From: Methylophilus sp. QUAN
GTDB taxonomy: Bacteria > Pseudomonadota > Gammaproteobacteria > Burkholderiales > Methylophilaceae
Direction of reading: 5' to 3'
DNA: 64,000 nt
Assembly (NCBI RefSeq): GCF_015354445.1
Contig: NZ_JADKYT010000003.1
Span: 1 to 64,000, forward strand
The translations under genes were made by a program, and so were the position numbers. The notes under the pieces are model-generated. The model was given only the letters and a program-made list of their open reading frames with translations, made no database searches and was not told the origin of the DNA. Positions 6,391-52,921 of this stretch are shown piece by piece. Numbering within the stretch: the first letter of the stretch is position 1; every line of letters starts with the position of its first letter.

Positions 6391-6392
6391 GA

Positions 6393-7517: not shown

Positions 7518-7533
7518 AACAGAACTTCAACCA

Positions 7534-8520: not shown

Positions 8521-8602
8521 GGGCATCACCTGCATATGCCGTGCAGGTTAAATGCCTATGATGACAAAATCATTAAAGTAAAAAGAAAGAATTATGTCGA
8601 CA

Positions 8603-8624
8603 CACCCGCGCCGACGCGCGGGTG
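8603..8624 (-). terminator. hairpin after the DUF4197 gene
   Basis: A perfect 9-bp stem (CACCCGCGC / GCGCGGGTG) with a 4-base loop lies 26 bases after the stop of the DUF4197 gene. It lacks a clean T-run on the minus strand, so it may be a weak terminator or a transcript-end stabiliser. Confidence 0.45.
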
Positions 8625-8649
8625 CAATGTAGAAGCTGATGAGAGTCGG

Positions 8650-9405
8650 CTACTTGGCAGCACCAAATACCTTTTTGAGCAGATTACTGGCCTGGCCCAT
8701 CGGGTCCTGGCGAATGGCAGCTTCTTCTTTGGCAATCATCAGGTATACACCATCCAGTGCTTTCTGCGTCACATACTGGTTAATATTGGCATCCTCTTTT
8801 TTAATCACGCCAAACTTGCTGCCCATCTCGGCATATTTATTATAAGTGTCTGCCAGTTGCACATTGGCCGTGGCTTTTTGCACGATAGGCAGGAACTTGG
8901 CCGCCATATCGGTAGAAGTCGTTTTCTTGAAATATTGCGTGGCGGCATCTTGCGGACCGGTGAGAATATTTTTGGCATCGGTCACACTCATTTGCTTAAC
9001 CGAATTCACCAATAACGTTTTGGCCTCAGGCACGGCCTGTTCAGCGGCGCGGTTCATTTTTAAGATCAACTCATCGGCCTGGCTGCCCATGCCCACCATG
9101 CGCATGCCTTTTTCAATTTTCTTCAAAGAATCCGGCAACGGGATTTTGACCTCTTTATTGCCCATAAAACCATCGGTCGTGCCCAACAGGCCAACGGCTT
9201 TACTCACGCCCTGGTTAAGCGCTTGCTTGAGGCCGTCGCTGGTTTCCTGTTCGCTCAAGTTACTGACTGCGCTACTATTACCACCACTGCTACTGGACGA
9301 GCTACCACCGACTTTTTCAACAATATCGCCCAAGCCCTTGAGGTCCAACGCCTGTGCATCTGTGATTAATAAACCGGCCAACAATACCCATGCTGTGTTT
9401 TTCAT
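8650..9405 (-). CDS. DUF4197 family periplasmic protein
   Basis: A 251-residue exported protein. It begins with a clear signal peptide (MKNTAWVLLAGLLITDAQA), then a Ser/Gly-rich linker (GGSSSSSSGGNSS, about 32-45) and a helical DUF4197 domain containing LKQALNQGVSKAV, IPLPDSLKKIEKGMRMVG and DAATQYFKKTTS. The function of the family is unknown. The ATG at 9405 was chosen because the signal peptide begins there. It stands alone between hairpins at 8603 and 9449, so it is probably transcribed singly. Confidence 0.82.
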   Translation of the reverse strand: MKNTAWVLLAGLLITDAQALDLKGLGDIVEKVGGSSSSSSGGNSSAVSNLSEQETSDGLKQALNQGVSKAVGLLGTTDGFMGNKEVKIPLPDSLKKIEKGMRMVGMGSQADELILKMNRAAEQAVPEAKTLLVNSVKQMSVTDAKNILTGPQDAATQYFKKTTSTDMAAKFLPIVQKATANVQLADTYNKYAEMGSKFGVIKKEDANINQYVTQKALDGVYLMIAKEEAAIRQDPMGQASNLLKKVFGAAK

Positions 9406-9448
9406 GATAACGCTCTTTAACAAGTTAAATGCAGTGTACCCATAAAGC

Positions 9449-9478
9449 ACAAAGCAAGTCCAGATGGACTTGCTTTGT
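9449..9478 (-). terminator. terminator hairpin after glgP
   Basis: A perfect 14-bp inverted repeat (ACAAAGCAAGTCCA / TGGACTTGCTTTGT) with a 2-base spacer lies 21 bases after the glgP stop. Both ends are T/A-rich, so it may work in either direction, although the gene on its other side starts there rather than ending. Confidence 0.6.
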
Positions 9479-9498
9479 TGACGCTGTCAGATAAAAAA

Positions 9499-12000
9499 TC
9501 AGGCTTTAAATGGTGAAACCTGCCAGATACGTTGTGCGTAATCAGCAATCGTGCGGTCACTGGAGAATTTTGCCATGCGCGCCACATTTAAAATCGCCAT
9601 GCGTGACCAAGCCTCTTCATCCTGATACAAGGCAGCCACTTTTTCCTGTGTGGTGACATAGGCAGCATAATCCGCCAGCAACAGGTATTGGTCACCCTTA
9701 TGCAACAAGGTGTCGACGATGGCCTGGTAACGGCTAGGCTCTTCTACCGAGAAAAAGCCGTTACCTATCATGTCTATGACTTGTTTCAGCTCGCTGTTGC
9801 CATGGTAATAATCCCACGGGTTATAGTTGCTGGCTTTGAGTTGCGCGACTTCAGGCGTGGTCAGGCCAAAAATAAAGATATTCTCGTCGCCAACCTCTTC
9901 CTTGATCTCCACATTAGCACCATCCAGCGTGCCTATGGTCAACGCGCCATTCAACGCCATTTTCATATTACCGGTGCCGCTGGCCTCGGTGCCTGCGGTT
10001 GAAATCTGCTCAGACAAATCCGCCCCCGGGAAGAGGATTTCTGCCGCACTGACTTCATAGTTGGGGTAGAACACCACCTTCAACTTGTCATTCACGGCCG
10101 GGTCATTATTGATCATGGTCGCTACATCGTTAATGAGGCGGATAATCTGCTTGGCCAGCCAATAGCCTGGCGCAGCCTTACCGGCAAAAATGACCACACG
10201 CGGCGTGTGCTGGCTCACTTGTCCGCTACGGATACGGTTATACAAAGTAATGACGTGCAAGACATTTAATAACTGCCGCTTGTATTCGTGGATGCGTTTA
10301 ATTTGCACATCAAACAAAGCATTGGTATTAATGGCGATGCCTGTTTTTTGCAGGATTTTGTCGGCCAGGCGTTGCTTGTTGGCTTTTTTAACCTCACGGA
10401 ACGCTTTTCTGAACGCAGCATTATCAGCAAGCGGCTCAACCTTTTTGATCAAACTCAGGTCTTTCTGAAAACCAGCGCCAATATGCTTGGTTAACAATTC
10501 CGTCAGCAAAGGATTGGCCTGGTTTAACCAGCGACGCGGTGTAATACCATTGGTCACATTGGTAAACTTGCCCGGGTAGATTTTATTAAAATCAGCAAAC
10601 AAGGTGGTTTTCAATAACTCACTATGCAGCTCGGCCACGCCGTTGACGGTATGGCTACCGACAATCGCCAGGTGCGCCATACGCACGCGACGGCCATGCG
10701 TTTCATCAATAATAGAAACGCGTTGCAACAAGGCAGTATCGCCAGGAAAATGCTGGTTAACCATCTGCAAGAACTGATGGTTTATTTCGTAAATGATTTC
10801 CAGGTGACGTGGCAATAACTGCGCGAATAAATCGACCGACCAGGTTTCTAGTGCCTCGGGCATCAGCGTGTGGTTAGTATAAGCAAACATTTTGGTGATC
10901 AACTTCCAGGCTTTGTCCCATGGCAAGTGATAGTGATCTACCAGTTGATGCATCATTTCCGCAACCGCAATCGCCGGATGCGTATCGTTTAACTGGATCG
11001 CCACTTTTTCCGGCAAGGTATTCCAGTCAGCGTTGTAGTTGGTGAAGCGGTGCAGAATATCCTGCGTTGAGGCAGAGACAAAGAAGTATTGTTGCTTCAG
11101 GCGCAATGCCTTGCCAGACTCAGAAGTATCGTTGGGATACAGCACTTGTGAAATGGTCTCGGCGCTATGGCGGCCTTCAACCGACTTCTCGTAATTACCT
11201 TCATTAAAGTGTGCCAGGTCAAACTCGTTCGTCGCCTTGGCCGACCATAACCGCAGATTGTTCACGGTTTGCGTGCCATAGCCAGGCACCGGCACATCAT
11301 ACGGCATGGCCACCACGGTTTCGTGGTCTACCCAGTGATGCTCAATGCCATGTTCGGTATGCACATGCAACACGCGGCCATAAAACTTCACCTCACAGGT
11401 ATGCTCAGGGCGCTGTACTTCCCAAATGTTCTGGTAGCGCAACCAGTTGTCCGGGTTTTCTTTCTGCTGGCCGTTCTCAATCGTTTGTCTGAACATGCCA
11501 TAGTCATAACGAATGCCATAGCCGGTCGCCGGAATATCCATAGTCGCCATTGAGTCGACAAAGCACGCGGCCAGTCTGCCCAGGCCACCGTTACCTAAAG
11601 CAGCATCCGGCTCCAGCTCGGCCACACCTTCGAGCTTTTGGCCAATCTCCTGCAAGCCCTCGCTTAGTTCCGGTGCAATGCCCAAATTAAGTGCGGCGTT
11701 AGACAGCATGCGGCCAATCAAAAACTCCAGTGAAAGGTAATACACGCGTTTGGTATTAGCATCACGGTAAGCATCGCGCGTATTCACCCAGCGGCTCATC
11801 AAGTGGTCACGCACGGTAAAGGCCGCAGTCTGGTACCAGTCGCGTGTCGTCGCCCATGAGTTGGACTTGCCTAATGAAAAAGTGAGATGGTTACGTAATG
11901 CTTGTGGGATAGGTAATTGTTCGAGTACGAATTCGTCAGCCGCTTGGGCACTGTCAGGTTGTTGAGCGTTTTTACGTGTTTTTTTCACATTGGCAGTCAT
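9499..12000 (-). CDS. glgP: glycogen/alpha-glucan phosphorylase
   Basis: An 833-residue GT35 phosphorylase that releases glucose-1-phosphate from alpha-1,4-glucan in the cytoplasm. Visible motifs include YLSLEFLIGRML (about 87), AALGNGGLGRLAACF (about 131), VQIKRIHEYKRQLLN (about 590) and the pyridoxal-phosphate region EASGTGNMKMALNGALTIGTLDGANVEI (about 673, with the Schiff-base Lys). The ATG at 12000 has a strong GGGGAAG site; the longer frame to 12054 lacks homology. No other glg gene is nearby, so it is a stand-alone degradation gene here. Confidence 0.95.
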   Translation of the reverse strand: MTANVKKTRKNAQQPDSAQAADEFVLEQLPIPQALRNHLTFSLGKSNSWATTRDWYQTAAFTVRDHLMSRWVNTRDAYRDANTKRVYYLSLEFLIGRMLSNAALNLGIAPELSEGLQEIGQKLEGVAELEPDAALGNGGLGRLAACFVDSMATMDIPATGYGIRYDYGMFRQTIENGQQKENPDNWLRYQNIWEVQRPEHTCEVKFYGRVLHVHTEHGIEHHWVDHETVVAMPYDVPVPGYGTQTVNNLRLWSAKATNEFDLAHFNEGNYEKSVEGRHSAETISQVLYPNDTSESGKALRLKQQYFFVSASTQDILHRFTNYNADWNTLPEKVAIQLNDTHPAIAVAEMMHQLVDHYHLPWDKAWKLITKMFAYTNHTLMPEALETWSVDLFAQLLPRHLEIIYEINHQFLQMVNQHFPGDTALLQRVSIIDETHGRRVRMAHLAIVGSHTVNGVAELHSELLKTTLFADFNKIYPGKFTNVTNGITPRRWLNQANPLLTELLTKHIGAGFQKDLSLIKKVEPLADNAAFRKAFREVKKANKQRLADKILQKTGIAINTNALFDVQIKRIHEYKRQLLNVLHVITLYNRIRSGQVSQHTPRVVIFAGKAAPGYWLAKQIIRLINDVATMINNDPAVNDKLKVVFYPNYEVSAAEILFPGADLSEQISTAGTEASGTGNMKMALNGALTIGTLDGANVEIKEEVGDENIFIFGLTTPEVAQLKASNYNPWDYYHGNSELKQVIDMIGNGFFSVEEPSRYQAIVDTLLHKGDQYLLLADYAAYVTTQEKVAALYQDEEAWSRMAILNVARMAKFSSDRTIADYAQRIWQVSPFKA

Positions 12001-12087
12001 ACATCTTCCCCTGGGGTGTTGATCACAAATTTGCTTTAAGTGAGTCAAAAGCAAAAAGCAAGCCTACAACAAGAATGTGTCAGACAT

Positions 12088-12120
12088 AAAAAAGGCCACA
12101 AAATTCATGTTGTGGCCTTT
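12088..12120 (-). terminator. rho-independent terminator of the FadL-type gene
   Basis: On the minus strand AAAGGCCACA pairs with TGTGGCCTTT and is followed by TTTTTTAT, a classic intrinsic terminator. It lies 38 bases after the stop of the porin gene and just upstream of glgP, separating the two. Confidence 0.85.
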
Positions 12121-12157
12121 GATTATAACGCCCGAAAGCGGCGTCAATAAAAAAGTT

Positions 12158-13411
12158 TTACAGTTTCCAGGTATAGGCAATGCCCAGTGCATCCTGATAC
12201 ATCTTCAAATTAGCCTCACCACCACCAAAGGCAGCAGGAATCGAACCACTTCCATCCACTTTGTTTTCAAACGCATGCGTATAAGAGAATGACAGTTCAG
12301 ATTGCGGGCTTAATACCCAAGTCGCGCCAAGTGATACGTGATCTTTCACCACTCCTGGCGCCAGGATATTGAGCAAGGTATCGCCACGGCGGATAGGCTG
12401 GTCGACATGGTTAAACCCTGCACGCAAGGTCAAGCTTGGGCTATATTGATACAAAGCACCAATCTTATACACCTTGGCGTCCTGCCAGTTAAAACCGGCA
12501 CCATTGTCATTACCCAGGCCATTAAACAAATTCGTCAGCGAAGCATTACCCACCGCATCCACTTCACTATAGTTAATGCGCTGAAAGTCTGCCGCCAGCG
12601 TCAACGCCGGGGTCGCTTTCACTGCGATCCCCACGCCATAGGTAGATGGAATATCAAAGTCACCCTGTTCGGCAAACAGGCCTTTGTATTTATCAAACTT
12701 ACTCATATAAGTACGGCTCTGGTAAGTCGCACCCAAAGTCACGGTATCGGTGATTTCACCCAACCAGCCAATATGCACGCCTGCCCCATATGAATTGTCA
12801 TGCCCGTTATTGGTCACCCGCCCTGGTGCGGCGCTAAAGCTTGCATTATCAAAACCTTGCAAGCCTTTGGCCTCAAAGCGCTGATAAGCCAGATTTAATG
12901 ACGCACCGATAATATGTTTTTCAGACACTTTCCAGGTAGCCGTTGGTGCCACAAATACCTGGATCAAGTCTACCCCGGCACGGCCCTGGCTTTGGAACAG
13001 TGGAATACCGTTTTTGTAATCCGTATTCATACCACCATTGCCATACACGCTCACACCCAGCGTCACGTCGTCAGAATATTGCTTGTTGTAGCCAAACTCA
13101 GGGATCAAGAAATTCTGCGTATCATTGCCTTTGTAAGTGCCATTGGCGCCCGGTGAAGGGCTGCCTTCCAGCTCAGACTCACGTACTGGCCTGAACCAGG
13201 TCACCCCTGCATCAATACGGTCACCAACTTTCCCCAGACCCGCCGGGTTAGCTGCAGCAGCCAGTGCATCCTGCGGCAAGGCAATACCTACACCCGCCAC
13301 GCCCTGTGAACGCACGCCATAACCATGCGCAAAATAGCCGTCGGTTGCCCAAGCACTACCAAATGAAAACGAAACCAATAATGGAATCACTGCGGCCACA
13401 CTGCGTATCAT
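12158..13411 (-). CDS. FadL/OmpP1/TodX-type outer-membrane transport protein
   Basis: A 417-residue beta-barrel. A signal peptide ends at SAWA, and the mature N-terminus TDGYFAHGYGVRSQGVAGVGIA followed by DALAAAANPAGL is the hatch motif of the FadL family, which takes up long-chain fatty acids or other hydrophobic molecules. The remainder is alternating beta-strands ending in YTWKL, with the hydrophobic-aromatic C-terminus usual for outer-membrane proteins. The ATG at 13411 has AGAGGTG about 8 bases upstream; a GTG at 13420 is less likely. Flanked by terminators, so monocistronic. The ligand is not predictable. Confidence 0.88.
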   Translation of the reverse strand: MIRSVAAVIPLLVSFSFGSAWATDGYFAHGYGVRSQGVAGVGIALPQDALAAAANPAGLGKVGDRIDAGVTWFRPVRESELEGSPSPGANGTYKGNDTQNFLIPEFGYNKQYSDDVTLGVSVYGNGGMNTDYKNGIPLFQSQGRAGVDLIQVFVAPTATWKVSEKHIIGASLNLAYQRFEAKGLQGFDNASFSAAPGRVTNNGHDNSYGAGVHIGWLGEITDTVTLGATYQSRTYMSKFDKYKGLFAEQGDFDIPSTYGVGIAVKATPALTLAADFQRINYSEVDAVGNASLTNLFNGLGNDNGAGFNWQDAKVYKIGALYQYSPSLTLRAGFNHVDQPIRRGDTLLNILAPGVVKDHVSLGATWVLSPQSELSFSYTHAFENKVDGSGSIPAAFGGGEANLKMYQDALGIAYTWKL

Positions 13412-13518
13412 GACATTCACCTCTGTTTATACGGTTCTCGCCATGTACTCTAGCAAAGCCATTTAATATCAATAAATAATAAATATAAATATATTTATAA
13501 CTTTTAGATATAAAAAAT

Positions 13519-13540
13519 AAAGCCCGCCAAGGCGGGCTTT
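13519..13540 (-). terminator. rho-independent terminator of htpG
   Basis: On the minus strand AAAGCCCGCC and GGCGGGCTTT form a perfect stem, followed by ATTTTTTAT. It lies 20 bases after the htpG stop. Confidence 0.88.
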
Positions 13541-13559
13541 ATCAAAGCTCATAACAAAA

Positions 13560-15473
13560 CTACAAAATCAGGCTGTTCATGCGTTTGACAAAACTGGCCG
13601 GATCTTCCAGTTGCCCGCCCTCAGCTAACAAGGCCTGGTCAAACAACACATGCGCGTAGTCGGCAAATTTGGTGTCGTCAGCTTCGGCCTTGAGTTTTTC
13701 AACCAGCCTGTGACCAGGGTTAATCTCGAGGATAGGTTTGCTGTCTGGCGCTTTCTGGCCTGCAGCCTTCAGGATACGCGCCAAATTACCGGACAAATCA
13801 TGCTCGCCAGCCACCAGACACGCTGGTGAGTCGGTCAGGCGATGCGTCACTTTGACTTCTTTGACACTCTCGCCCAGCGCGGTTTTAATGCGCTCAACTA
13901 AATCCTTAGCCTGCTCTTCAACCTGCTTTTGTGCTTCTTTGTCGGCTTCGTCTTCCAGTTTGCCCAAATCCAAATCGCCTTTGGCAATCGACTGCAGTTT
14001 CTTGCCTTCAAACTCGGTCAAGCCGCCCAGCAACCATTCATCTACCTTGTCCGACATCAGCAACACTTCAATGCCTTTTTTACGGAAGATTTCCAGGTGC
14101 GGTGAGTTTTTGGCGGCAGCAAACGTATCGGCCGTGATGTAGTAAATCGCTTCCTGCTCGGGTTTCATGCGCTCAATATAGGCCTTGAGCGACACCTCTT
14201 GTGCTTCAGTATCCGCATGGGTAGAAGCAAAGCGCAATAAACCAGCAATCTTGTCCTTATTGGCAAAATCTTCGCCCGGACCTTCTTTGAGCACGCGGCC
14301 AAACTCGCCCCAGAACTTGGCGTAATCTTCCGGTTTGTTTTCAGCCACATCTTCCAGCAAGCTCAATACTTTTTTCACTGAGCCATTTTTAATCGCTTCC
14401 ACGTCGCGGCTGTCCTGCAAAATTTCACGCGACACGTTCAACGGCAAATCGGCTGAGTCAATCACGCCGCGCACAAAGCGCAGGTATTGCGGCATCAGCT
14501 TTTCCGCGTCTTCAAGGATAAATACGCGCTTCACATATAACTTGATGCCCTGACGGCGATCGCGGTCGTATAAATCAAACGGTGCCTTGCCCGGTACATA
14601 TAGCAATGAAATATATTCCTGCTTGCCCTCTACGCGGCTATGCGTATACGCCAGCGGGTTTTCGTAATCATGCGAAACGTGTTTGTAAAACTCGTTGTAC
14701 TCTTCTTCAGTGATGTCGCTTTTGCTGCGTGCCCACAACGCTGAGGCCTTGTTGATGGTTTCGTCTTCATTGGTGGTCACCATCTGGCCGCCTTCGCCGT
14801 TCTCGCCATCTTTCCATTCGGATTTCTTCATGACAATTGGCAAAGTAATATGGTCAGAATACTTGCGGATGATGGTTTTCAGTTTCCAGTCGTTGAGGAA
14901 CTCATCTTCACCTTCGCGCAGATGCAAAATGACCTCAGTACCACGACCAGCTTTTTCAGTGGTTTCAATGGTGAAATCACCTTCACCGCCAGATTCCCAT
15001 TTAATGGCTTCGGTTTCACCGGCACGGCGCGTAATCAGCGTCACTTTGTCGGCAATGATAAAGCTGGAGTAAAAACCCACGCCAAACTGGCCAATCAGGT
15101 TGGCATCTTTGGCTTGATCACCGGTCAGGTTCTGGAAGAACTCTTTGGTACCGGATTTGGCAATGGTGCCGATGTTGTTAATCACCTCTTCGCGGCGCAT
15201 GCCGATACCGTTATCGGCAATGGTCAGCGTACGTGCGTCTTTATCAAACGTGATGTTGATCTTTAACTCGCTGTCGTTTTCATACAGGCTGCCGTTAGAG
15301 ATAGCCTCAAAACGCAACTTGTCAGCCGCGTCCGATGCGTTGGAAATCAGCTCGCGCAACACGATCTCTTTGTTGCTATAGAGCGAGTGAATCATCAATT
15401 GTAGTAATTGTTTGACCTCGGCTTGAAAGCCCATGGTCTGTTTAAATTGCGATTCTGCTGTCGCTGTCGTCAT
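13560..15473 (-). CDS. htpG: molecular chaperone HtpG (Hsp90)
   Basis: A 637-residue Hsp90 that remodels client proteins in the cytoplasm using ATP. The GHKL ATPase motifs are clear: [14 protein letters not shown] (about 35), DNGIGM (about 83) and [11 protein letters not shown] (about 119). Middle-domain and C-terminal dimerisation regions follow at normal length (E. coli 624). The frame is open for 59 further codons upstream, but the ATG at 15473 has GGAGA at the right distance and matches the family start. A near-consensus RpoH promoter at 15516-15545 indicates heat-shock control. Confidence 0.97.
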
Positions 15474-15515
15474 GACAATTTCTCCAAAAACGGGTTGAAC
15501 ACAAAAATTTACGTT

Positions 15516-15545
15516 TAGATGGGGAAATAAAAACCGTTTTTCAAG
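15516..15545 (-). promoter_or_regulatory. RpoH (sigma-32) heat-shock promoter of htpG
   Basis: On the minus strand CTTGAAAA (15545-15538) is followed after 13 bases by CCCCATCTA (15524-15516), matching the sigma-32 consensus (CTTGAA, 11-16 bases, CCCCATNT) almost perfectly. It lies 43 bases upstream of the htpG start codon. Confidence 0.88.
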
Positions 15546-15739
15546 AGGGGGATTTGAAGAGATTGCTTGAATGCAGCCTAACCTGTGATTAAAGCATACC
15601 GCCATTGCGTGCATAGAGACCACAACGCACGCCATTGGCTGCTTGTTCACCCATTCAAACTGGTCGATTCAGCACACTTTTTGCTAGCTATTTGTTAAAG
15701 CAGCATTCTTTGTTCAGATGTCAGGTTAGGAGAGTAGGT

Positions 15740-16372
15740 ATGAATCTCTTTCACACGCTAATCGAGCAAATGCAGGTCATGAAACTGCCACTGTATGCAG
15801 TCACACTGACCGCCGTCCCGCGCGCAGATACACCTTTGCTACTCATGCTGCACTGGCATGGCTTCCGCAAACAGCCCACACCCGCCCTGCCCATGCTCAA
15901 ACCCATCCTACAGCCCGTGCCCGGCTCAGCCTTGCAGATCAATGACCGCTGGCGGCAGCCAGAAGTGGTCGAAGAAGCCATACTCGACGCCGCCTGGCAA
16001 TTAGGTGCTTGGGACGTGCAACGCGAAGAACACCGCGCCTGCACCTATGTCGGCGCCAGTGAACATGAAGCCCTCGCCTGCAAACAGGCGTTTGGCAAGT
16101 ATGACGAAGAACTCGAAAGTGAACTACTGGTCAGTGAAGCGCCGGACCGTGACGAAATGTTGCAACTGGGTGCCAAAGTTGGGTATATCCGCTGGCAGTT
16201 TAGGCCAGTAAATGGCGGTGTCTGGCAATCGACGGCAGAGGATGACACCCTGCTAGAAGATGGTCGGCGTATCCCGCCCTGCCCGATTCGGCCATTGGCA
16301 CTAAAAGGGGGCAAATTAACTAAGACGGCGTTTAGGTTGGGGCAGATTAATCGGATTATTTTGTTGAAATAG
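15740..16372 (+). CDS. hypothetical protein
   Basis: I do not recognise this 210-residue protein. It has no signal peptide or membrane segment. The N-terminal 100 residues include the Trp/Pro-rich stretch LLLMLHWHGFRKQP; the middle is acidic (YDEELESELLVSEAPDRDE) and the C-terminus basic. The ATG at 15740 has a good AGGAGAG site; coding statistics and the site support a real gene. It is divergent from htpG and ends beside repeat copy A. A cytoplasmic protein of unknown role. Confidence 0.7.
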   Translation: MNLFHTLIEQMQVMKLPLYAVTLTAVPRADTPLLLMLHWHGFRKQPTPALPMLKPILQPVPGSALQINDRWRQPEVVEEAILDAAWQLGAWDVQREEHRACTYVGASEHEALACKQAFGKYDEELESELLVSEAPDRDEMLQLGAKVGYIRWQFRPVNGGVWQSTAEDDTLLEDGRRIPPCPIRPLALKGGKLTKTAFRLGQINRIILLK

Positions 16373-16417
16373 GTTTGATGACCAGATTGGAATGCTGGCG
16401 ATTTTAGGAAACATTTC

Positions 16418-16966
16418 TTTTCGCCCTTTCGGCGAGTGACTTTTCTTTGCTTGCACAAAGAATAAGTAACCAAAAGAAATGCACCCCAGCTTCCGCTTGT
16501 TTCCTGCGTTGCTCGTCAAAATAAGCGGTCACGAAACTCAACCTGGTAGCTCACACAGAACGTGAGCTACTGCGGGATTCGAACAGTCGCTCCCTTCACC
16601 TTATTTTGCCTGCGCTACTCGGCGCGGCAGATGGGGACCCCGAACACCATGCGACTGCAACCATTCGCGAATTGAAGAAAAAGAATCTGGTTTTGGAACC
16701 GTCCAAACTTCTACTATGTGAGTTTGGCGAGAATAATCCCATCCCATCACGCTGAGTAGCGGAGACAAAATAAGAGTAGAGGGAGCGACTGTCTGAGCTC
16801 CGCAACAAGCCACGAAGTGTGTGGCTTGTCAGGGCGAGTTTCGTGACCGGCTTATTTTGTTGAGCAACGCAAGGGAGCCGCAGGCCGTGATGGCTGGGTG
16901 CCCTCCTCTTTGGTTACTTTCTGGGGGCAAGCACCAGAAAGTGACTCGCCAACAAGGCGAAAAAAT
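16418..16966 (-). repeat. dispersed MITE-like repeat, copy A
   Basis: A complete copy of the 550-bp element also found at 30853, 54844 and 63358, here inverted relative to the copies at 30853 and 63358. It starts with TTTTCGCC-n-GGCGAGTGAC and ends with GTGACTCGCC-n-GGCGAAAAA, so its ends are inverted repeats of each other; inside each end is a second hairpin (for example CTTTCTGG / CCAGAAAG). Interior hairpin cassettes GTAGCTCACAC/GTGAGCTAC and ACAAGCCAC/GTGGCTTGT occupy the opposite arms compared with copies B and D. No transposase frame. It fills the gap between two convergent genes. Confidence 0.85.
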
Positions 16967-16988
16967 ACGACTAATAAAGAACCACCCG

Positions 16989-17675
16989 CTATGGCGTCCA
17001 CCTCACCCCAATCGACAACCACTGTGTCTGACTATTGCCATTCACCTGCTGCCCGACCGTGCCATCAATCTGAAACACCTCCGGCACCAGCGAGTAACGC
17101 AAGCCCACTTGGTAGAAAGGATTTTGCGTATGGTCACCAAACACTTCAGCCACGCCTTTGAAGTTTCCACCCAATTTAAACTCGGAGCCGACACCCATAT
17201 TGACCTTGTTGCGATCTTCCTGCCGGTCGCGCAGCATGCCAACGTTGACATGCACAATCACATCGTCATCACGCAGCGAGAAAGAAACCGGCACATAAAA
17301 ATAGGTATTCCCCAACTGGTTGGGCCCAGGCTGAATATCCGGATGCATGACGCGCCCGGCGGCAAAGCCTATGCCCCAGCCATTGGTTTCCAGCGGTTTA
17401 AACAGGGTTTTAAACTGGGCGACCCAGTCTTCGGTGTGATAGTTGTCATCGCTGTTACGATAGCTACCGCCGCCCAGGGTAATTTCAAAATTCTCGCCGA
17501 GGTTGCATGCAGGCAGTGCCCATAGTTCATGACCGCCCTGATAACTGCGCATCCAGCTTTCCAACTGGCAGCCATGGGCATTGGTCAAACGGGCATCATC
17601 CGTGACCAATGGGCGTGCAGCATTGGCATTGTGGGCAATGCAAAGTAAGCATACGAGGTAAAATAAGTGACGCAT
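16989..17675 (-). CDS. hypothetical exported protein, probable beta-barrel
   Basis: A 228-residue protein of unknown function. The signal peptide MRHLFYLVCLLCIAHNANA precedes ARPLVTDDARLTNAHGCQLESW, after which the sequence alternates short hydrophobic and polar strands (for example FEITLGGGSYR, YFYVPVSFSLRDD, WLSIGVRWTP) as in small outer-membrane barrels or copper-resistance-type porins. The frame runs further upstream, but the signal peptide fixes the start near 17675; the Shine-Dalgarno sequence is weak. It faces repeat copy A at its 3' end and diverges from the small gene at 17831. Confidence 0.72.
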   Translation of the reverse strand: MRHLFYLVCLLCIAHNANAARPLVTDDARLTNAHGCQLESWMRSYQGGHELWALPACNLGENFEITLGGGSYRNSDDNYHTEDWVAQFKTLFKPLETNGWGIGFAAGRVMHPDIQPGPNQLGNTYFYVPVSFSLRDDDVIVHVNVGMLRDRQEDRNKVNMGVGSEFKLGGNFKGVAEVFGDHTQNPFYQVGLRYSLVPEVFQIDGTVGQQVNGNSQTQWLSIGVRWTP

Positions 17676-17830
17676 AAATAGTATCTTAGAGTTTTTTGAT
17701 GTTATTTTTTTGACATGACGATTTGATGAAATCAAGCCTGCCTATGCGGTTTCATTTTCATATTAGTTTCACTGGCCTCTGCCAACATAACGATTTATAC
17801 TGTTTGCAGCATTTGTCTGGGGAGGCAAGC

Positions 17831-18103
17831 ATGGCGACTATTGAGGTGACTGAAACCAGTCCGAACTCGTTTTCTGTCACGGTACATGGGTCGCACATCA
17901 CTACGCATCAAGTCAGTGTCAAACCTGATTATGCGGATCCGTTGCTCGATGCCAAGCACAACGTTGCCGAATTGGTGGCGGCTTCTTTCCAGTTTTTGCT
18001 CGACCGCGAGTCCAATACCAGTATTTTGAGAAGCTTTGATTTAAGCGTGATTGAACGCTACTTTCCAGAATACCCCAAGGCCATTAACCGCTACCTTAAG
18101 TAA
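17831..18103 (+). CDS. small conserved-looking hypothetical protein
   Basis: A 90-residue acidic cytoplasmic protein starting MATIEVTETSPNSFSVTVHGS with a strong GGAGG site 5 bases upstream. It appears to have an N-terminal beta-sheet half and a C-terminal helical half (ELVAASFQFLLDRE, LSVIERYFPEYPKAI). It ends 17 bases before ppx on the same strand and is probably cotranscribed with it. Function unknown; the context suggests a possible accessory role in polyphosphate metabolism, which is inference only. Confidence 0.7.
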   Translation: MATIEVTETSPNSFSVTVHGSHITTHQVSVKPDYADPLLDAKHNVAELVAASFQFLLDRESNTSILRSFDLSVIERYFPEYPKAINRYLK

Positions 18104-18120
18104 CCTACCCGTATTATCGC

Positions 18121-19599
18121 ATGCTAAATATTACTCATGACACCCAACTCGCTGCCGTAGATTTGGGTTCCAACAGTTTTCGCCTCGAAATCGGGCGCGT
18201 TGTGGACGGCCAGATTCTACGTGTCGACTATTTAAAAGAAGCTGTGCGACAAGGCGGCGACCTGGATGAAGAACGCAACCTGAAACCGCAGGCGTTTGAG
18301 CGCGGCCTGAAATGCCTGGCCCGTTTTGGCGAGCGCCTGAAAGGGTTTGCACCTGAGCATGTACGCGCGGTTGCCACGCAAACCTTGCGTGAAGCCGCCA
18401 ACAGCGACGAGTTTATCAAGCAGGCACAAAAAGTACTCGGCTACCCAATTGAGATTATCTCCGGCGTGGAAGAAGCGCGCCTGATTTACCAGGGCGTGAG
18501 CCGCATGCTGCCGCAATCAGACGAAAAACGCCTGGTAGTGGATATCGGCGGGCGCTCTACCGAATTTATCCTCGGCCAGCATTTCAAGGCCAATGTTACG
18601 GAGTCGTTACGCTTAGGCTCTGTTGGCTGGTCACAAAAATATTTTGCCGATGGCCAGTTCAGTGAGCGCAACTTTGAGCGCGCCGAAATTGCCGCCGAGT
18701 CCATTATCGACATGATTGCCAACCGCTACGTCGGCCAGTCCGAAGTGGCCTATGGCGCCTCTGGCACCGTGGGTGCCGTCGCTGATGTATTGGCGGGTGC
18801 CGGTTTTGCTACAGACCGCATCGAACGGGCACAACTGGAATGGCTGAAGCAAATTTTAATTAAGGCCAAATCTGCTGACCGCCTGAATATGGAAGGCCTT
18901 AAGGACGACAGGCGTGCCGTGATTGGTGGCGGGCTGGCGGTATTGACCGCGGTGTTTGACACCCTGAAACTGGACACACTGATGGTGGCGAACGGCGCCT
19001 TACGTCATGGCGTGCTATATGACATGCTGAGCTCTGACCATGCGACCGAAGATTTACGCACGGCATCGATTGCGCGGCTGTGTAAACGCTTTGGCGTCGA
19101 AATGGACCACGCCAACAATGTGAGCAAGCTGGCCTTGTATTTTTATGACGCCATGCAGGCTTGCGATAGCCAAAAACCACTGTTGCACTGGGCTGCATTG
19201 TGTCATGAAATCGGCTGGGCCATTTCGCACACCGACTGCAATAAACACGGCGCCTACATCCTGGACAACACAGAACTGATGGGTTTTGCACAAAGTGAGT
19301 TGCATACCATCAGCCTGCTGGTACTTGGCCATCAGGGTAAATTACGCAAACTGGCCGCCGACTTTGACAACCAGGACCTGGTCTGCCAGTTGATGGCCTT
19401 GCGGTTAGCAGTGATTTTCTGCCATTCGCGCCGCCTGCCAGCGCTCAAACACTTGCAACTGGAGCGTCATAAACAGCAATTTATCCTGGCACTGTCGTCA
19501 CAATGGGCCAGCCAGCACCCGCAAACCCATTACCTGCTGGAAGAGGAATGCCTGTTATGGCAAAAACTGGGCTGGCAGCTAGAGATCAGGCATAGCTAA
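18121..19599 (+). CDS. ppx: exopolyphosphatase (Ppx/GppA family)
   Basis: A 492-residue Ppx/GppA phosphatase, which removes terminal phosphate from polyphosphate (or from pppGpp). The actin-like ATPase-fold motifs are present: AAVDLGSNSFRLEIGRV (about 13), ATQTLREAANS (about 80), VEEARLIYQGV, VDIGGRSTEFILG (about 140) and AYGASGTVGAVADV (about 216); a C-terminal HD-type helical domain follows (HWAALCHEIGWAI). Facing ppk lies 2 kb away with a ParA locus between them, so polyphosphate is the likelier substrate. Ends at a bidirectional terminator. Confidence 0.9.
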   Translation: MLNITHDTQLAAVDLGSNSFRLEIGRVVDGQILRVDYLKEAVRQGGDLDEERNLKPQAFERGLKCLARFGERLKGFAPEHVRAVATQTLREAANSDEFIKQAQKVLGYPIEIISGVEEARLIYQGVSRMLPQSDEKRLVVDIGGRSTEFILGQHFKANVTESLRLGSVGWSQKYFADGQFSERNFERAEIAAESIIDMIANRYVGQSEVAYGASGTVGAVADVLAGAGFATDRIERAQLEWLKQILIKAKSADRLNMEGLKDDRRAVIGGGLAVLTAVFDTLKLDTLMVANGALRHGVLYDMLSSDHATEDLRTASIARLCKRFGVEMDHANNVSKLALYFYDAMQACDSQKPLLHWAALCHEIGWAISHTDCNKHGAYILDNTELMGFAQSELHTISLLVLGHQGKLRKLAADFDNQDLVCQLMALRLAVIFCHSRRLPALKHLQLERHKQQFILALSSQWASQHPQTHYLLEEECLLWQKLGWQLEIRHS

Positions 19600-19614
19600 A
19601 TAAAATAGTTAAAT

Positions 19615-19643
19615 AAAAAACGGGCATGTATGCCCGTTTTTTA
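19615..19643. terminator. bidirectional terminator between ppx and the ParA operon
   Basis: AAAAAACGGGCAT and ATGCCCGTTTTTT form a GC stem flanked by A and T runs on both sides, so it can end transcripts from ppx (plus) and from the ParA operon (minus). Confidence 0.88.
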
Positions 19644-19659
19644 TTGTGTTGATGACAAC

Positions 19660-19905
19660 TCAGTCTTTTTTCTTCTTGTCGCGTTTTTCGTCTTCTTCAC
19701 GCAGCTTGACCACTTTATCGCGCCACTCCTGCAATTGCTCATCTTCAATCTCAAGCTGCAAGGCCAGTGCTTCTTCCTGGCTTAGTTTTTCCTTGATAAA
19801 ACGCTTAGGCAATTTACCACCCATGCGTGACAGAATGCGTTCAGCCTCATCAGCGCTCAATTGTTTTACTTTATCCAGATACACCGGATTTACCTTGTCT
19901 TTCAT
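19660..19905 (-). CDS. small highly charged helical protein
   Basis: An 81-residue protein, unrecognised. It is rich in Lys, Glu and Asp and mostly helical: LDKVKQLSADEAERILSRMGG, FIKEKLSQEEALALQLEIEDE, then a coiled-coil-like WRDKVVKLREEDEKR and a terminal KKKKD. The ATG at 19905 has AGGGAG; the frame upstream overlaps parA and was rejected. It follows parA by 38 bases and is probably in its operon. By position it could be a ParA partner or adaptor, but nothing in the sequence proves it. Confidence 0.68.
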   Translation of the reverse strand: MKDKVNPVYLDKVKQLSADEAERILSRMGGKLPKRFIKEKLSQEEALALQLEIEDEQLQEWRDKVVKLREEDEKRDKKKKD

Positions 19906-19943
19906 AGCACTCCCTTTGATTCCCTGTTTGTCACAGGCTCGCT

Positions 19944-20564
19944 TTAACTGTTTTGCAGAATCCAGTCGGTGACCGGATTCCACTGCGCAATGTCGACCTC
20001 TTTCAAGCTGTTCGACAATTCAAAAATACTTAAGCCTTCCTCCGCTGCCGTCACATAAATTTGTGATGAACGCAGCATGGAAAGCACGGCAAAGCCTGAT
20101 TCATCCATAAATGCTAGCAGGCGCTCTGCTGAGCGCGTGCGAGGCATCACACGCATGCCCACCAGGCCAACAAATGTCTTGTGCTTGCGCACGGCTTTTT
20201 CTTCAGCCAGCAGCTCCAAAAAGTCTTGCGTGGCCCCAATATCAAATGCAGATGGCGCAATAGGCACCAACACCAGGTCAGCCTCGGTCACCGCATCAGA
20301 AATCTTTTTGTCCCGCAGCCCGCCCGGCGAGTCAGTAATCACCCAATCTGCTTTCTGCAAGGCAGATTTACCAAGGTCTTCGGCATTAAACACGGTGGCA
20401 ACATGCGATGGGCGGCGCGCCAGCCAGTCAGCTGAAGACTGCTGGCGGTCAATATCTTCCAGCACGATTTTGTGCCCCAGTTGCGCCAGATAGCCAGCAA
20501 GATTGGTGGCCAGAGTGGTTTTGCCGCAGCCTCCTTTGGTATTTGCCACCAATACCCTGCGCAT
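19944..20564 (-). CDS. orphan ParA-family ATPase
   Basis: A 206-residue ParA/MinD-type ATPase. The deviant Walker A is NTKGGCGKTT (residues 8-17) with both lysines; Walker A' is VLEDIDRQQSSADW, and switch II is WVITDSPGGL (about 74). There is no N-terminal DNA-binding domain, as in short orphan ParA proteins that position plasmids, chemoreceptors, carboxysomes or other cargo on the nucleoid. No parB gene is adjacent; instead a small charged protein lies downstream and a lysine/alanine-rich DNA-binding-type protein is divergent at 20708. It is placed between ppx and ppk, which suggests polyphosphate-granule positioning (inference). Confidence 0.85.
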   Translation of the reverse strand: MRRVLVANTKGGCGKTTLATNLAGYLAQLGHKIVLEDIDRQQSSADWLARRPSHVATVFNAEDLGKSALQKADWVITDSPGGLRDKKISDAVTEADLVLVPIAPSAFDIGATQDFLELLAEEKAVRKHKTFVGLVGMRVMPRTRSAERLLAFMDESGFAVLSMLRSSQIYVTAAEEGLSIFELSNSLKEVDIAQWNPVTDWILQNS

Positions 20565-20649
20565 CTCATACTCCCTGATTAAAGGTGCTGCATTTTGTCA
20601 TGAAAAACAGCCTCTATAACACCACAAAAATATGAAATATTTATGACAA

Positions 20650-20677
20650 TTGACGTCAGCAAAAAACGGTATAAACT
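20650..20677 (+). promoter_or_regulatory. candidate promoter of the H1-like gene
   Basis: TTGACG (20650-20655) is followed after 16 bases by TAAACT (20672-20677), with an overlapping TATAAA two bases earlier. The -35 box contains a palindromic TGACGTCA. The start codon at 20708 has a strong AGGAG site. The 143-base gap between divergent parA and this gene must hold both promoters. Confidence 0.45.
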
Positions 20678-20707
20678 GTTTTCACAATATCAATTCAGGA
20701 GAACCAC

Positions 20708-21223
20708 ATGGCCAGCAAACCAGTCGCCAAACCCTTGAGCACCAATAAACCAGCCACAGCAAAAACTAGCAACCCAGCCAAGCCAGTCGCAACCAAACCG
20801 GTTGCTGCCACGCCTGCCAGCGCGAAACCTGTTGCTGCAAAGCCCTCTACTGTAAAACCAGCCACGGCCAAACCTGCCATTAAGCCGATTGCCAAAGCCG
20901 TTGCAAAAACAGCGGCCGCTACGAAAAAAGTGGCTCCTGCCAGCTCAGCCATTAAAGTGGTGAACAAAACAGCGACAACGACTGAAAAGGACAAACCCAA
21001 AACCAGCAAGGTAAAAATGGAGCGCGATAGCTTCACCATGCCAAAAGAAGAGTATGCGCAAATCGCTACCTTGAAAAAACGCCTCGAAGGCCTGGCCAAA
21101 CCAGCCAAGAAGAGCGAACTGTTGAGGGCAGGCTTGAAGCTGCTATCAGCAATGGATGACGCCTCTTTGAAAGCAGCGATGGCGGCCGTGCCAACGATTA
21201 AAACCGGCAGACCAAAGAAATAA
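20708..21223 (+). CDS. histone H1-like Lys/Ala/Pro-rich protein with C-terminal ribbon-helix-helix-like domain
   Basis: A 171-residue basic protein. Residues 4-80 are low-complexity KPVA/KPATAK repeats like the tails of bacterial histone H1-like proteins (AlgP, HctB, PhaM), expected to bind DNA or polyanions. Residues about 105-150 look like a ribbon-helix-helix fold: strand DSFTMP, helix KEEYAQIATLKKRL, turn, helix KKSELLRAGLKLLSAM. The protein ends TGRPKK, an AT-hook-like GRP core. Divergent from parA and next to sixA-ppk. AlgP of Pseudomonas, a KPAA-repeat protein, has been linked to polyphosphate granules, so a granule-nucleoid linker is plausible but unproven. Confidence 0.75.
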   Translation: MASKPVAKPLSTNKPATAKTSNPAKPVATKPVAATPASAKPVAAKPSTVKPATAKPAIKPIAKAVAKTAAATKKVAPASSAIKVVNKTATTTEKDKPKTSKVKMERDSFTMPKEEYAQIATLKKRLEGLAKPAKKSELLRAGLKLLSAMDDASLKAAMAAVPTIKTGRPKK

Positions 21224-21267
21224 GCCTGCATGCACCTGACTTAAAATAGCCAGGTCATAGCCACCGC

Positions 21268-21732
21268 TTACTCAATCAAATCGGGGCTTTGCACACTATA
21301 TAATTTATAGGGTGGCCCCGATTTTGGTAGCCGCAACCACCACACGGCACCTTTCTTAATACTGATCTGCCCGTCTGGCATGCCCAGGCTTTGCGCTGCC
21401 AGTTCCCCTATCCAGGGCTGGTGGCCGACCAGCATCACAGTCTCAAACGGACTTTGCGCCAGCAACTGCAATAAAGGCTCCAATGGCCTTTCGGGCGCCA
21501 GCCGACTATCCTCCTGCCAATCATCGCCCCAATAAGCCACGGTTTCACGCGTACGCACCGCAGGGCTCACCAGCACATACGTCTGTTTTGGCAGATACTT
21601 CTTGAGCCAGCTCGCCATTTGCTTGGCCTGTTTATGCCCTTTTTTGGTCAGCGCGCGCTCAAGGTCAGAGGCGCCGTGCAATAACACTTCGGCTTCGGCA
21701 TGACGCCATAAAATCAAATTTTTCACTGACAT
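21268..21732 (-). CDS. sixA: phosphohistidine phosphatase SixA
   Basis: A 154-residue single-domain histidine phosphatase. The catalytic LILWRHAEAE lies at the N-terminus; VSPAVRTRETVAYW and VMLVGHQPWIGELAA supply the other conserved Arg and His. SixA removes phosphate from histidine phosphotransfer domains (ArcB, NPr) in E. coli. It begins 9 bases after the ppk stop, so it is cotranscribed with polyphosphate kinase, itself a phosphohistidine enzyme; whether SixA acts on it is unknown. Confidence 0.88.
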   Translation of the reverse strand: MSVKNLILWRHAEAEVLLHGASDLERALTKKGHKQAKQMASWLKKYLPKQTYVLVSPAVRTRETVAYWGDDWQEDSRLAPERPLEPLLQLLAQSPFETVMLVGHQPWIGELAAQSLGMPDGQISIKKGAVWWLRLPKSGPPYKLYSVQSPDLIE

Positions 21733-21741
21733 CGCGCGGCA

Positions 21742-23784
21742 CTACATGGAATGATATTGTTGCAATAACAGGTTCTGGCAAGACAGCGGCTCGGCATCCT
21801 GCGCCAATTGTGCCACAGGCACATACTGGCCTTTTTCTGCCAATTGCCAGGCATCCTTGTTGTCTTGCAGGTAAAGCTGCAGGCTTTCCTGGTAAATGCG
21901 GCTTTGCATGGCCGGGTCTTTAATAGGCCAGGCGAGCTCAACCCGCCGCATCATATTGCGGCTCATCCAGTCAGCGCTGGATAGCCACATCTGCACTTGC
22001 CCATCCAGCTCAAAATAAAACACGCGTGAATGCTCCAGCAAGCGACCGACGATAGAACGCACGCGGATCCGACCTTTGACTGCGGGTGAGTCGACCGGCA
22101 AGATGCAGGCACCGCGCACAATCAAGTCAATCTCCACGCCTGCGCTGGCAGCCTTCATCAAAGCGGCCACCAACGGCACATCTGTCAGGGCGTTCATTTT
22201 GGCAATCACCCTGGCTGGTTTGCCCTGTTTCGCCAGGCGCTGGGCCTTCTCCAGCTGCTTGATCATGCTGTTTTGCAGGGTAAATGGTGCCACCAGCAAA
22301 TGTTTCAGGGCCGGAATCGGCAACTCGCTGGTCAGGTGGCGGAACACCGTTTCCATTTCGCGCGTCAGGTTGGCATCCGCAGTCAGCATGCTCCAGTCTG
22401 TGTATAAACGCGTGGTTTTCGGATTGTAGTTACCGGTAGAAAGGTGGCCGTAACGGTGAATCACTTTGCCTTCGCGACGCATAATCAGCAACATTTTTGC
22501 GTGCGTTTTCAAGCCCACAACACCATATACCACTTGCGCGCCGACTGACTCCAAGGCCTCCGCCCAGTTAATGTTTGCCTCTTCGTCAAAGCGCGCTTTG
22601 AGCTCCACCACCACCAGCACTTCTTTGCCACGACGCACGGCCTCTTGCAGCAAGCGCAACATGCGTGGATCCGCACCGGTACGGTAAATCGTCATACGGA
22701 TAGCAAGCACCTGATCGTCTTTGACCGCTTCTTCCAGTAATTGGATGACCACCTCAAAACTCTCGTAAGGCTGGTGAATCAGCAGGTCTTTTTCACGCAT
22801 TTGTGCCAGCAAGGAGGTATTACGTTTGATATGTCGTGGCCAGTGCGGTTGGAAAGGCACAAACTTGAGGTGGTCGCCCTTGGCCATGTCTGGCAACTGG
22901 ATCAAACGCCCCAGGTTTACCGGCCCGTTAACGCGATAAAGCGCGAGCGGCGGCAGGTTAAACTGCTTAAGCAGAAACTCGGCCAGCGTGTCATCACATT
23001 CCTGTGTGACCTCCAGGCGCACGGCTTCACCATATTGACGATGCGCCAGCTCTTCACGCAAGGCCGTACGCAAGTTGATCACATCATCCTCATCTACCTC
23101 AAGGTCACTATTACGCGTGACGCGGAACTGGGAGAAATGCAGGATGCTGGCGCCCTGGAACAGCACTTCCAGATTGGCGCGGATAATACTGGTCAAGGAT
23201 ACAAAGCATTGTTCGCCTTTGCTGATGGACGGCGGCAACTGCACCAGCCGCGGCACCACACGCGGCACACGTACAATCGCAATTTTCTCTTCGTCATCAA
23301 CAGCAATGCGCACAATAAAATTGAGAGACTTATTGGCAACTTGCGGGAACGGATGCGATGGATCCAGCGAGACTGGCATTAAAAACGGCAGCACTTCACG
23401 CTTGAAGTAATTAGACACCCAAGTGGTTTGCTCTGGTGTACGCACACCACCAGAGACCAGGTGCACGCTTTCTTTCGCCAGCGCTGGCATCAGCGCATCA
23501 TTAAACAACTGGTATTGTTGCGCCACCAGCGCCTGTGCCATGGTAGCCACTTGTTCACAGGTCGTGGCTGACACTGGCCCGCTGGTCACACCTTGCTGAT
23601 ACGCCTCCATCTGCAAGGGCATGCGCACCTCAAAGAACTCATCAAGATTGTTAGAGACGATACATAAAAAACGTAAACGCTCGAGTAGGGGATAGTCCTC
23701 TCGCTGCGCTAAAGACAGTACACGGGCATTAAAACTGAGAATGCTAAGGTCTCTGTCAAGCAGAGCAGGCGTGGTATTTTTCAT
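21742..23784 (-). CDS. ppk: polyphosphate kinase 1
   Basis: A 680-residue PPK1, which builds long-chain polyphosphate reversibly from ATP at the membrane. The N-terminal domain starts LLDRDLSILSFNARVL with CIVSNNLDEFFEVRM; the catalytic C-terminal half has ARFDEEANINWAEALESVGAQVVYGVVGLKTHAKMLLI, with the His of KTHAK as the expected phosphorylated residue, then RYGHLSTGNYNPKTTRLYTDWSML. Length matches E. coli (688). Followed by sixA in an operon. Antisense frames of up to 213 residues across it are shadows. Confidence 0.97.
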   Translation of the reverse strand: MKNTTPALLDRDLSILSFNARVLSLAQREDYPLLERLRFLCIVSNNLDEFFEVRMPLQMEAYQQGVTSGPVSATTCEQVATMAQALVAQQYQLFNDALMPALAKESVHLVSGGVRTPEQTTWVSNYFKREVLPFLMPVSLDPSHPFPQVANKSLNFIVRIAVDDEEKIAIVRVPRVVPRLVQLPPSISKGEQCFVSLTSIIRANLEVLFQGASILHFSQFRVTRNSDLEVDEDDVINLRTALREELAHRQYGEAVRLEVTQECDDTLAEFLLKQFNLPPLALYRVNGPVNLGRLIQLPDMAKGDHLKFVPFQPHWPRHIKRNTSLLAQMREKDLLIHQPYESFEVVIQLLEEAVKDDQVLAIRMTIYRTGADPRMLRLLQEAVRRGKEVLVVVELKARFDEEANINWAEALESVGAQVVYGVVGLKTHAKMLLIMRREGKVIHRYGHLSTGNYNPKTTRLYTDWSMLTADANLTREMETVFRHLTSELPIPALKHLLVAPFTLQNSMIKQLEKAQRLAKQGKPARVIAKMNALTDVPLVAALMKAASAGVEIDLIVRGACILPVDSPAVKGRIRVRSIVGRLLEHSRVFYFELDGQVQMWLSSADWMSRNMMRRVELAWPIKDPAMQSRIYQESLQLYLQDNKDAWQLAEKGQYVPVAQLAQDAEPLSCQNLLLQQYHSM

Positions 23785-23851
23785 GGCGATTATTGTATCG
23801 ACTCAACCTGTGTCAAATGTGACAGTTTTATGAAATTAAACAAACGTGTTA

Positions 23852-52824: not shown

Positions 52825-52921
52825 AAGCCATTCTCAACACATCAATGTCGGCGATTATACGACACATCTGCGCGCAGGCAATGACAGGATGATGACAGCA
52901 GCCCAGAGGCCCGCAAACCAG

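Follow-up and report, generated by a model that had tools for sequence, protein, structure and literature searches.

We analysed a 64,000-nucleotide stretch of DNA from Methylophilus sp. QUAN (contig NZ_JADKYT010000003.1, positions 1 to 64,000 of the forward strand; hereafter the window). In it, a gene for a ParA ATPase (parA) and a small gene for an 81-amino-acid (aa) helical protein lie between the exopolyphosphatase gene (ppx) and the genes of a SixA-type histidine phosphatase (sixA) and polyphosphate kinase 1 (ppk1, below also ppk). ParA and its small partner are probably an energy-driven system for positioning polyphosphate granules on the nucleoid, by analogy with McdAB, the system that positions carboxysomes. 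We favour a McdAB-like system for this cargo because parA is linked recurrently, in six gene orders, with genes for enzymes that act on one polymer and for proteins that bind it. The observations behind this proposal are the layout of the genes, their repeated linkage, the alternation of partners at parA and the Pho-box-like sites.

In the proposed mechanism, in which we infer all protein contacts, granule binding and movement, ATP-bound ParA dimers would coat the nucleoid. The granule adaptor would be the 81-aa protein here and a CYTH-CHAD protein in relatives, with CHAD binding polyphosphate. On the granule, the adaptor would stimulate ATP hydrolysis and release of ParA, and the granule would move up the ParA gradient, so that granules would be kept apart and shared between daughter cells. 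The neighbouring protein, which joins a Lys/Ala/Pro-rich, histone-H1-like (H1-like) part to a ribbon-helix-helix-like (RHH-like) domain (gene rhh), would probably be an AlgP-type granule protein of the ppk locus that binds nucleoid or polyphosphate, and would not belong to ParA.

The ParA protein and its locus

The ParA of the window matched Pfam CbiA (1.1e-13) and AAA_31 (4.3e-14), both above the gathering cut-off, and it has the KGGxGKT/S deviant Walker A motif; family and motif together place it among the ParA/MinD (A/D) ATPases. With the NCBIfam model NF041546 (ParA_partition) it scored 131.5 bits, below the curated cut-off of 180, as did five relatives (114.6-137.3 bits). The ParA of Methylophilus sp. 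14 and that of sp. 42 are each 100% identical to it. Two further ParA-like matches in its own genome cover part of the query, at 30 and 40% identity.

A preliminary description of this DNA had placed parA, the small gene and rhh between ppx and sixA-ppk1, and this layout was confirmed. parA and the small gene form one unit, and rhh is on the opposite strand. ParA is an orphan, as had been stated there: no parB-like gene was present among the open reading frames (ORFs) between ppx and ppk. Window-type parA occurs in 19 of 22 Methylophilus genomes, in the window-type locus in 14 of the 19 and elsewhere in 5. ppx is close in 13 of these 14 loci, and in genome G075 it is about 4.7 kb off.

Linkage of parA with polyphosphate genes

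Among 187 Methylophilaceae genomes, 103 had window-type parA (E <=1e-20), 146 had ppk1 (1e-100) and 145 had ppx (1e-40). The 106 parA matches gave 104 loci, after pieces with internal stops in G044 were merged and a match of 31% identity in G157 was omitted. The flanks covered about 1.5 kb for the 14 window-type Methylophilus loci and up to 6 kb for the others. They were searched with the Ppk, Ppx and SixA of the window as single queries, which may miss divergent copies, and with hidden Markov models (HMMs) for CYTH-CHAD, small and rhh. Gaps between genes are approximate because gene starts are those of the longest ORFs.

In 55 of the 104 loci, parA has at least one of ppk, ppx, sixA and CHAD within 1 kb (57 loci if CYTH-only genes count). 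An Mcd-type arrangement, in which a ParA-type ATPase is encoded with cargo genes and a partner gene, is seen in that these 55 loci have the cargo genes and that the partner gene is small in 57 or CYTH/CYTH-CHAD in 29 of the 104. Six gene orders were seen: ppk>sixA>rhh<parA>small>ppx<; ppx<small>parA>htpG>; small>parA>ppk>; sixA>parA>CYTH-CHAD>; ppk>parA>CYTH-CHAD>; and CYTH-CHAD>parA>. In a maximum-likelihood tree of 211 ParA rows (a quick search, with support only from the Shimodaira-Hasegawa-like approximate likelihood ratio test), Methylophilaceae, a second Burkholderiales family (f14), alphaproteobacteria and other betaproteobacteria formed separate groups, and the differing gene orders sit in separate groups. 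On this tree the linked versus unlinked state needs 9 changes and the partner state 13 (CYTH-only scored as CHAD, and without a shuffle control). The small-genome genera g2 and g15 of Methylophilaceae (about 1.3 Mb) were not among the genomes matching this parA, and many of their genomes also had no ppk or ppx match.

The preliminary description had let its granule proposal hinge on linkage beyond this strain, and such linkage was found in two Burkholderiales families and in alphaproteobacteria. ParA matched in 187 of 399 Burkholderiales genomes at 1e-30. Outside Methylophilaceae, we considered 14 loci of family f14 (a second match in G199 was left out) and 66 other betaproteobacterial loci (64 distinct, as G191 and G265 were fetched twice). 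In all 14 f14 loci a ppk or sixA gene lies no more than 1 kb from parA, and in 12 of them CHAD does too. Genus g95 of f14 shows the order ppk>parA>CHAD; CHAD was not found in locus L164. In four loci of this genus (L157, L158, L162, L164) the ppk stop and the parA start overlap by 4 nt, so the two genes are probably translationally coupled. In the alphaproteobacterial clade, which was drawn from a scan on ParA alone, CHAD is within 2.5 kb in 14 of 17 loci, 4 of the 17 being one species; parA is near CHAD also on a 1.18-Mb replicon of Indioceanicola (L370). ppk, parA and CHAD are also reported as clustered and conserved in Acidithiobacillus (PMC10892726, PMC6416229).

Two alternative partners at parA

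Within 1 kb of parA in the 104 loci we found the small gene in 57 and a CYTH or CYTH-CHAD gene in 29, and never both at the same parA, as if they were alternatives. Neither was present in 18 loci, 5 of which are beside sixA or ppx.

The small protein had been described as charged and helical. The helices were borne out (predicted model with a mean predicted local distance difference test score, pLDDT, of 84), and the start was moved from 19983 (listed ORF 19660-19983) to the ATG at 19905, because homologues begin with MK and a GGGAG site is present; therefore the small gene and parA do not overlap. The family core is ERLLSRM.GKLPKR..KEKLT..EA.AIQLE.EDEQL.EWR, with R22, R26, M27, K30, L40, A47, Q49, E51, L57 and W60 invariant in 30 aligned rows, and the N-terminus is mostly lysine-led (MK.K). 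Several homologues carry C-terminal Lys/Ala/Pro-rich tails (L122, L124, L137, L152 and L337, for example); the protein of the window has no such tail. No fold or domain was recognised in it, and a PDB fold search gave no significant match. Phasins had no Pfam match among the window proteins, and PhaP_Bmeg reached only 0.013 in 2 of 30 small homologues.

The presence of the small protein was checked in 64 genomes. It was found in 3 of 18 ppk-bearing genomes without parA (G148, G042, G180), in none of 9 streamlined genomes and not in G073, where neither parA nor ppk was found. Ten of 18 genomes whose parA locus has neither partner carry it elsewhere. In G180, the small gene adjoins ppk. Among 16 CHAD loci away from parA, three have the small gene beside CHAD (G157, G144) or one gene off (G158). 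Such closeness, noted at L355, L349 and L353, connects the two putative adaptors. The protein is rare beyond the family (11 of 250 order-level genomes, 4 of the 11 being family members).

In many other Methylophilaceae genera the CYTH(-CHAD) gene lies 3' of parA; in alphaproteobacteria it lies 5'. In its product an N-terminal CYTH domain is mostly followed by a C-terminal CHAD domain (PF05235), with Pfam E-values for CYTH and CHAD of 2e-23 and 8.1e-50 in L117 and of 2.5e-18 and 4.2e-63 in L048. The first CHAD HMM was built on whole CYTH-CHAD proteins, so its counts include CYTH-only proteins. Domain-specific HMMs then separated them, giving CHAD versus CYTH-only counts of 21 vs 8 in Methylophilaceae, 12 vs 0 in f14 and 14 vs 0 in alphaproteobacteria. 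CHAD occurs in 37 of 187 Methylophilaceae genomes and had no match in the own genome of the window. CHAD domains are reported as specific polyphosphate binders found on granules (PMC6537752, citing Tumlirsch and Jendrossek 2017). A C-terminal PFW tail of CHAD was considered as a ParA-binding signature and rejected, as it is also present in CHAD proteins away from parA. A CYTH gene without recognised CHAD follows parA in L118, L121, L127, L129, L312, L313, L314 and L322; these CYTH-only proteins are perhaps shortened relatives of CYTH-CHAD.

The same neighbourhoods could mean that ParA does not space granules already made but acts on a polyphosphate enzyme (PPK1, SixA or the CYTH phosphatase), by recruiting it, by setting its place or by tying its synthesis to the nucleoid or cell cycle. 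Enzyme genes indeed adjoin parA within 1 kb (sixA in 42, ppx in 21 and ppk in 3 of the 104 loci, besides the 29 with CYTH or CYTH-CHAD), one f14 genus has ppk overlapping parA, and 8 of the 29 CYTH-type partners (209-366 aa) have no CHAD found. The partner common to f14 and alphaproteobacteria, however, carries CHAD, the published granule binder. We therefore regard this explanation as unlikely, with some overlap between it and granule positioning because PPK1 and granules are hard to separate.

Pho-box-like sites

The window was scanned with an Escherichia coli Pho-box consensus, allowing up to 3 mismatches. Three sites were found against 0.12 expected: 5' of ppk (2 mismatches), 5' of parA (3) and at 52881 (3). 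The third one is at window:52881-52898 on the minus strand (CTGTCATCATCCTGTCAT). The parA site has 3 or fewer mismatches in 13 of the 14 Methylophilus loci and 4 in the other one; since these loci are aligned orthologues, it represents one conserved site and not 14 events. As background, 3 mismatches are also reached in 31 of 2080 randomly chosen 306-bp windows from the family loci scanned for this site. In the script-readable loci, 3 of 13 regions 5' of ppk reach 3 mismatches and 8 reach 4; for ppx the counts are 2 and 6 of 15. pstS had only a weak match in the own genome and was not used as a Pho-box control.

The chance seems to us a little better than even that these loci represent a widespread machine for partitioning polyphosphate granules, spread over alphaproteobacteria, betaproteobacteria and Acidithiobacillia, with one kind of ParA and interchangeable adaptors, the Methylophilus version being in the phosphate-starvation regulon. 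With the same slight leaning, we would name CYTH-CHAD or a small helical protein, often with an H1-like tail, as these adaptors.

Observations against granule positioning

Several observations weigh against granule positioning by this ParA. Gene linkage is evidence of a shared process and not of a mechanism, and rows within a clade are not independent. Of the 104 Methylophilaceae loci, 49 lack all of ppk, ppx, sixA and CHAD within 1 kb (34 with small only, 2 with CYTH only and 13 with nothing recognised; some of the 49 run into a contig end). Since window-type parA was found in only 103 of 187 genomes, no fewer than 43 of the 146 genomes with ppk must be without it. Only one of the 66 other betaproteobacterial loci is linked within 1 kb (L224, with ppx), another (L210) having a CYTH-CHAD-family gene at 2 kb; none of 49 gammaproteobacterial loci (L055-L111 outside the alphaproteobacterial list, including one record titled Halobacteria) is linked within 2.5 kb. 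Domain searches recognised no polyphosphate-binding domain in the small protein. CHAD is ill-suited as a necessary adaptor because of the CYTH-type partners without it. The small protein is encoded elsewhere in 14 of 18 genomes with parA beside CYTH or CYTH-CHAD, so that one replaces the other at the locus only and not in the genome. The parA Pho-box-like site with 3 or fewer mismatches occurs in only 1 of 89 other family loci, so that it belongs to one genus only.

ParA could be a single-copy housekeeping protein with another cargo (chromosome, chemotaxis array or unknown), lying near polyphosphate genes incidentally in a few lineages. The 65 of 66 unlinked betaproteobacterial loci and the 49 of 104 unlinked family loci fit this, yet parA is found linked time and again, in other gene orders, in tree groups apart from each other and with other polyphosphate genes, and by a rough, uncomputed estimate a random gene would lie within 1 kb of such genes in well under 1% of cases. 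We consider an incidental neighbourhood quite improbable.

The H1/RHH-like protein

The preliminary description had joined ParA, the small protein and the H1/RHH-like protein into a single system. That these form one fixed set was not borne out, as parA pairs with small or with CYTH/CYTH-CHAD, and the three-gene system with the H1/RHH-like protein as ParA adaptor was rejected, as rhh tracks ppk, sixA and ppx and not parA. The neighbourhood survey which it had suggested for betaproteobacteria gave linkage of parA with polyphosphate genes in two families and none at nearly all of the other loci examined, and the pairing of parA with the H1-like gene was not fixed. Of the earlier interpretation as a whole, the conserved linkage stands, the fixed three-gene set does not, and the H1/RHH-like protein is now assigned to the ppk locus.

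The Lys/Ala/Pro-rich part is clear: these residues make up 59% of the first 95 aa, the whole protein has a net charge of +27, and the segment is of the AlgP/PhaF H1-like type. The RHH-like domain described for the C-terminus is weakly supported. No Pfam domain was above its cut-off in the protein, RHH_1 was found in 2 and ParD in 1 of 33 family members, the model shows helices after an SFTMP segment (pLDDT 87), and a PDB fold search with this domain gave no significant match. The domain is present in 57 of 250 order-level genomes.

Within Methylophilaceae, 14 of the 104 parA loci have rhh no farther than 1 kb away. The gene is kept in the ppx-sixA-ppk locus with parA elsewhere in 4 of 5 fetched loci (L138, L144, L145 and L146, not L143). 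Beyond the window, 29 rhh loci were taken from the top-scoring part of 59 matches; a ppk, ppx or sixA gene lies within 1.5 kb in 12 of them, which come from five families, and parA in 1. Because it stays with ppk, sixA or ppx when parA is elsewhere, the H1/RHH-like protein belongs to the polyphosphate locus independently of ParA and probably binds DNA or polyphosphate, and therefore small (or CHAD) is the likelier ParA adaptor.

There were also other arrangements. In family f5 (L335:7170-8369, G314; also L258), parA and a divergent RHH-like H1 gene stand head to head as in the window, some 61 bp apart, in a stretch where ppk, ppx and sixA gave no match. In a third Burkholderiales family (f24; L336, G386), sixA, rhh, ppk, parA and ppx are within about 12 kb (6313-17945).

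Slightly more improbable still is a domesticated system for DNA partition or the nucleoid on the ParF/ParG pattern, in which the RHH-like protein would bind a centromere as ParG does and the polyphosphate genes would be nearby incidentally. In its favour, the nearest solved structures to ParA by sequence are ParF (1.3e-14) and a close ParA, rhh is divergent to parA here and in family f5, and its product has a basic N-terminal tail, as ParG has. Against it, rhh does not track parA, and the recurrent CHAD linkage would be left unexplained. A direct-repeat centromere of the ParF/ParG type next to parA was rejected, as no direct repeats were found between parA and rhh (20540-20730). A plasmid origin of parA or the small gene was dropped as well, since ParA had no relative at >=60% identity among 4838 matching plasmid records and the small protein had no match among plasmid records.

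Other features of the locus

The features of the locus are listed in Table 1. A short gene directly 5' of ppx (window:17828-18103, plus strand) had no Pfam or NCBIfam match and was found in 8 named Methylophilus loci (L033-L040).

Table 1. Positions of genes and sites between ppx and the region 5' of ppk1 in the window.
Feature	Position	Strand	Domain evidence
ppx, exopolyphosphatase (Ppx/GppA family)	18121..19599	+	Pfam PF02541 9.4e-72, PF21447 2.5e-32
Terminator-like hairpin, perfect 16-bp stem, separating the convergent parA-small and ppx units	19612..19645	n/a	
Small charged all-helical protein, 81 aa, candidate ParA partner	19660..19905	-	
parA, 206-aa ParA/MinD-type ATPase, deviant Walker A KGGCGKTT	19944..20564	-	
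Pho-box-like site 5' of parA, 3 mismatches, conserved in Methylophilus	20632..20649	-	
Sigma-70-like promoter TTGACG-16-TAAACT 5' of RHH-like gene, kept in 8 aligned loci	20650..20677	+	
H1-like protein, Lys/Ala/Pro-rich N-terminal part and C-terminal RHH-like domain	20708..21223	+	
sixA-type histidine phosphatase	21268..21732	-	His_Phos_1 1.7e-10; TIGR00249 64.9 bits, cut-off 74.5
ppk1, polyphosphate kinase 1	21742..23784	-	TIGR03705 6e-247
Promoter match TTGACA-16-AATAAT adjoining the ppk1 Pho-box-like site	23816-23789		
Pho-box-like site 5' of ppk1, 2 mismatches	23819..23836	-	

Significance and comparison with known systems

If granule positioning by ParA is true, polyphosphate granules would be a new class of cargo for ParA/MinD positioning, here a shell-less polymer condensate, and some orphan ParA proteins would gain a role. 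Bacteria may then spend energy on spacing and sharing out their phosphate-storage granules. A 2025 review states that energy use for localisation of polyhydroxybutyrate (PHB) and polyphosphate granules remains to be seen, and that proteins beyond the known nucleoid-binding ones may take part (PMC13052382). That question can now be taken up with a specific ParA, with CHAD or the small protein as candidate adaptors, in a genus already in culture. We found no proposal of granule positioning by this ParA in open-licence PMC text, and the titles and abstract beginnings of the Methylophilus granule papers considered show nothing on the subject.

The locus resembles McdAB in having a short ParA-type ATPase beside a small adaptor-like gene, adjoining genes that make the cargo, and the lysine-led N-terminus of the small protein is comparable with the basic N-terminal residues of such partners (PMC12204374). 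It differs in that the cargo genes encode polyphosphate enzymes, and that the putative adaptor in relatives is an enzyme-like CYTH-CHAD protein. No relation of the small protein to McdB turned up, in searches none of which was aimed at McdB. The exchange of CYTH-CHAD and small fits this class, because the partners of ParA/MinD positioning ATPases are very diverse (PMC10241942).

With ParF/ParG the likeness is that of ParA to ParF among solved structures; the system here is chromosomal, no direct-repeat centromere was found, and the RHH-like gene is not tied to parA.

AlgP, an H1-like protein, spaces polyphosphate granules in Pseudomonas aeruginosa (PMC9239181). By composition, AlgP is matched by the Lys/Ala/Pro-rich segments, N-terminal in the RHH-like protein and C-terminal in several small homologues. 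AlgP differs in its C-terminal KPAA repeats, which the small protein of the window does not have, and no ParA partner is described for AlgP in the passages of PMC9239181 consulted.

The Acidithiobacillus ppk-parA-CHAD cluster has the same three kinds of genes as the f14 genus g95. It was read in terms of cyclic AMP synthesis or copper resistance, with ParA termed a chromosome/plasmid partition protein, and the sections on it propose no granule positioning (PMC6416229, PMC10892726). Clustering of ppk, parA and CHAD was thus already in print for Acidithiobacillus, without the reading that our comparison suggests, in which ParA would position the granules.

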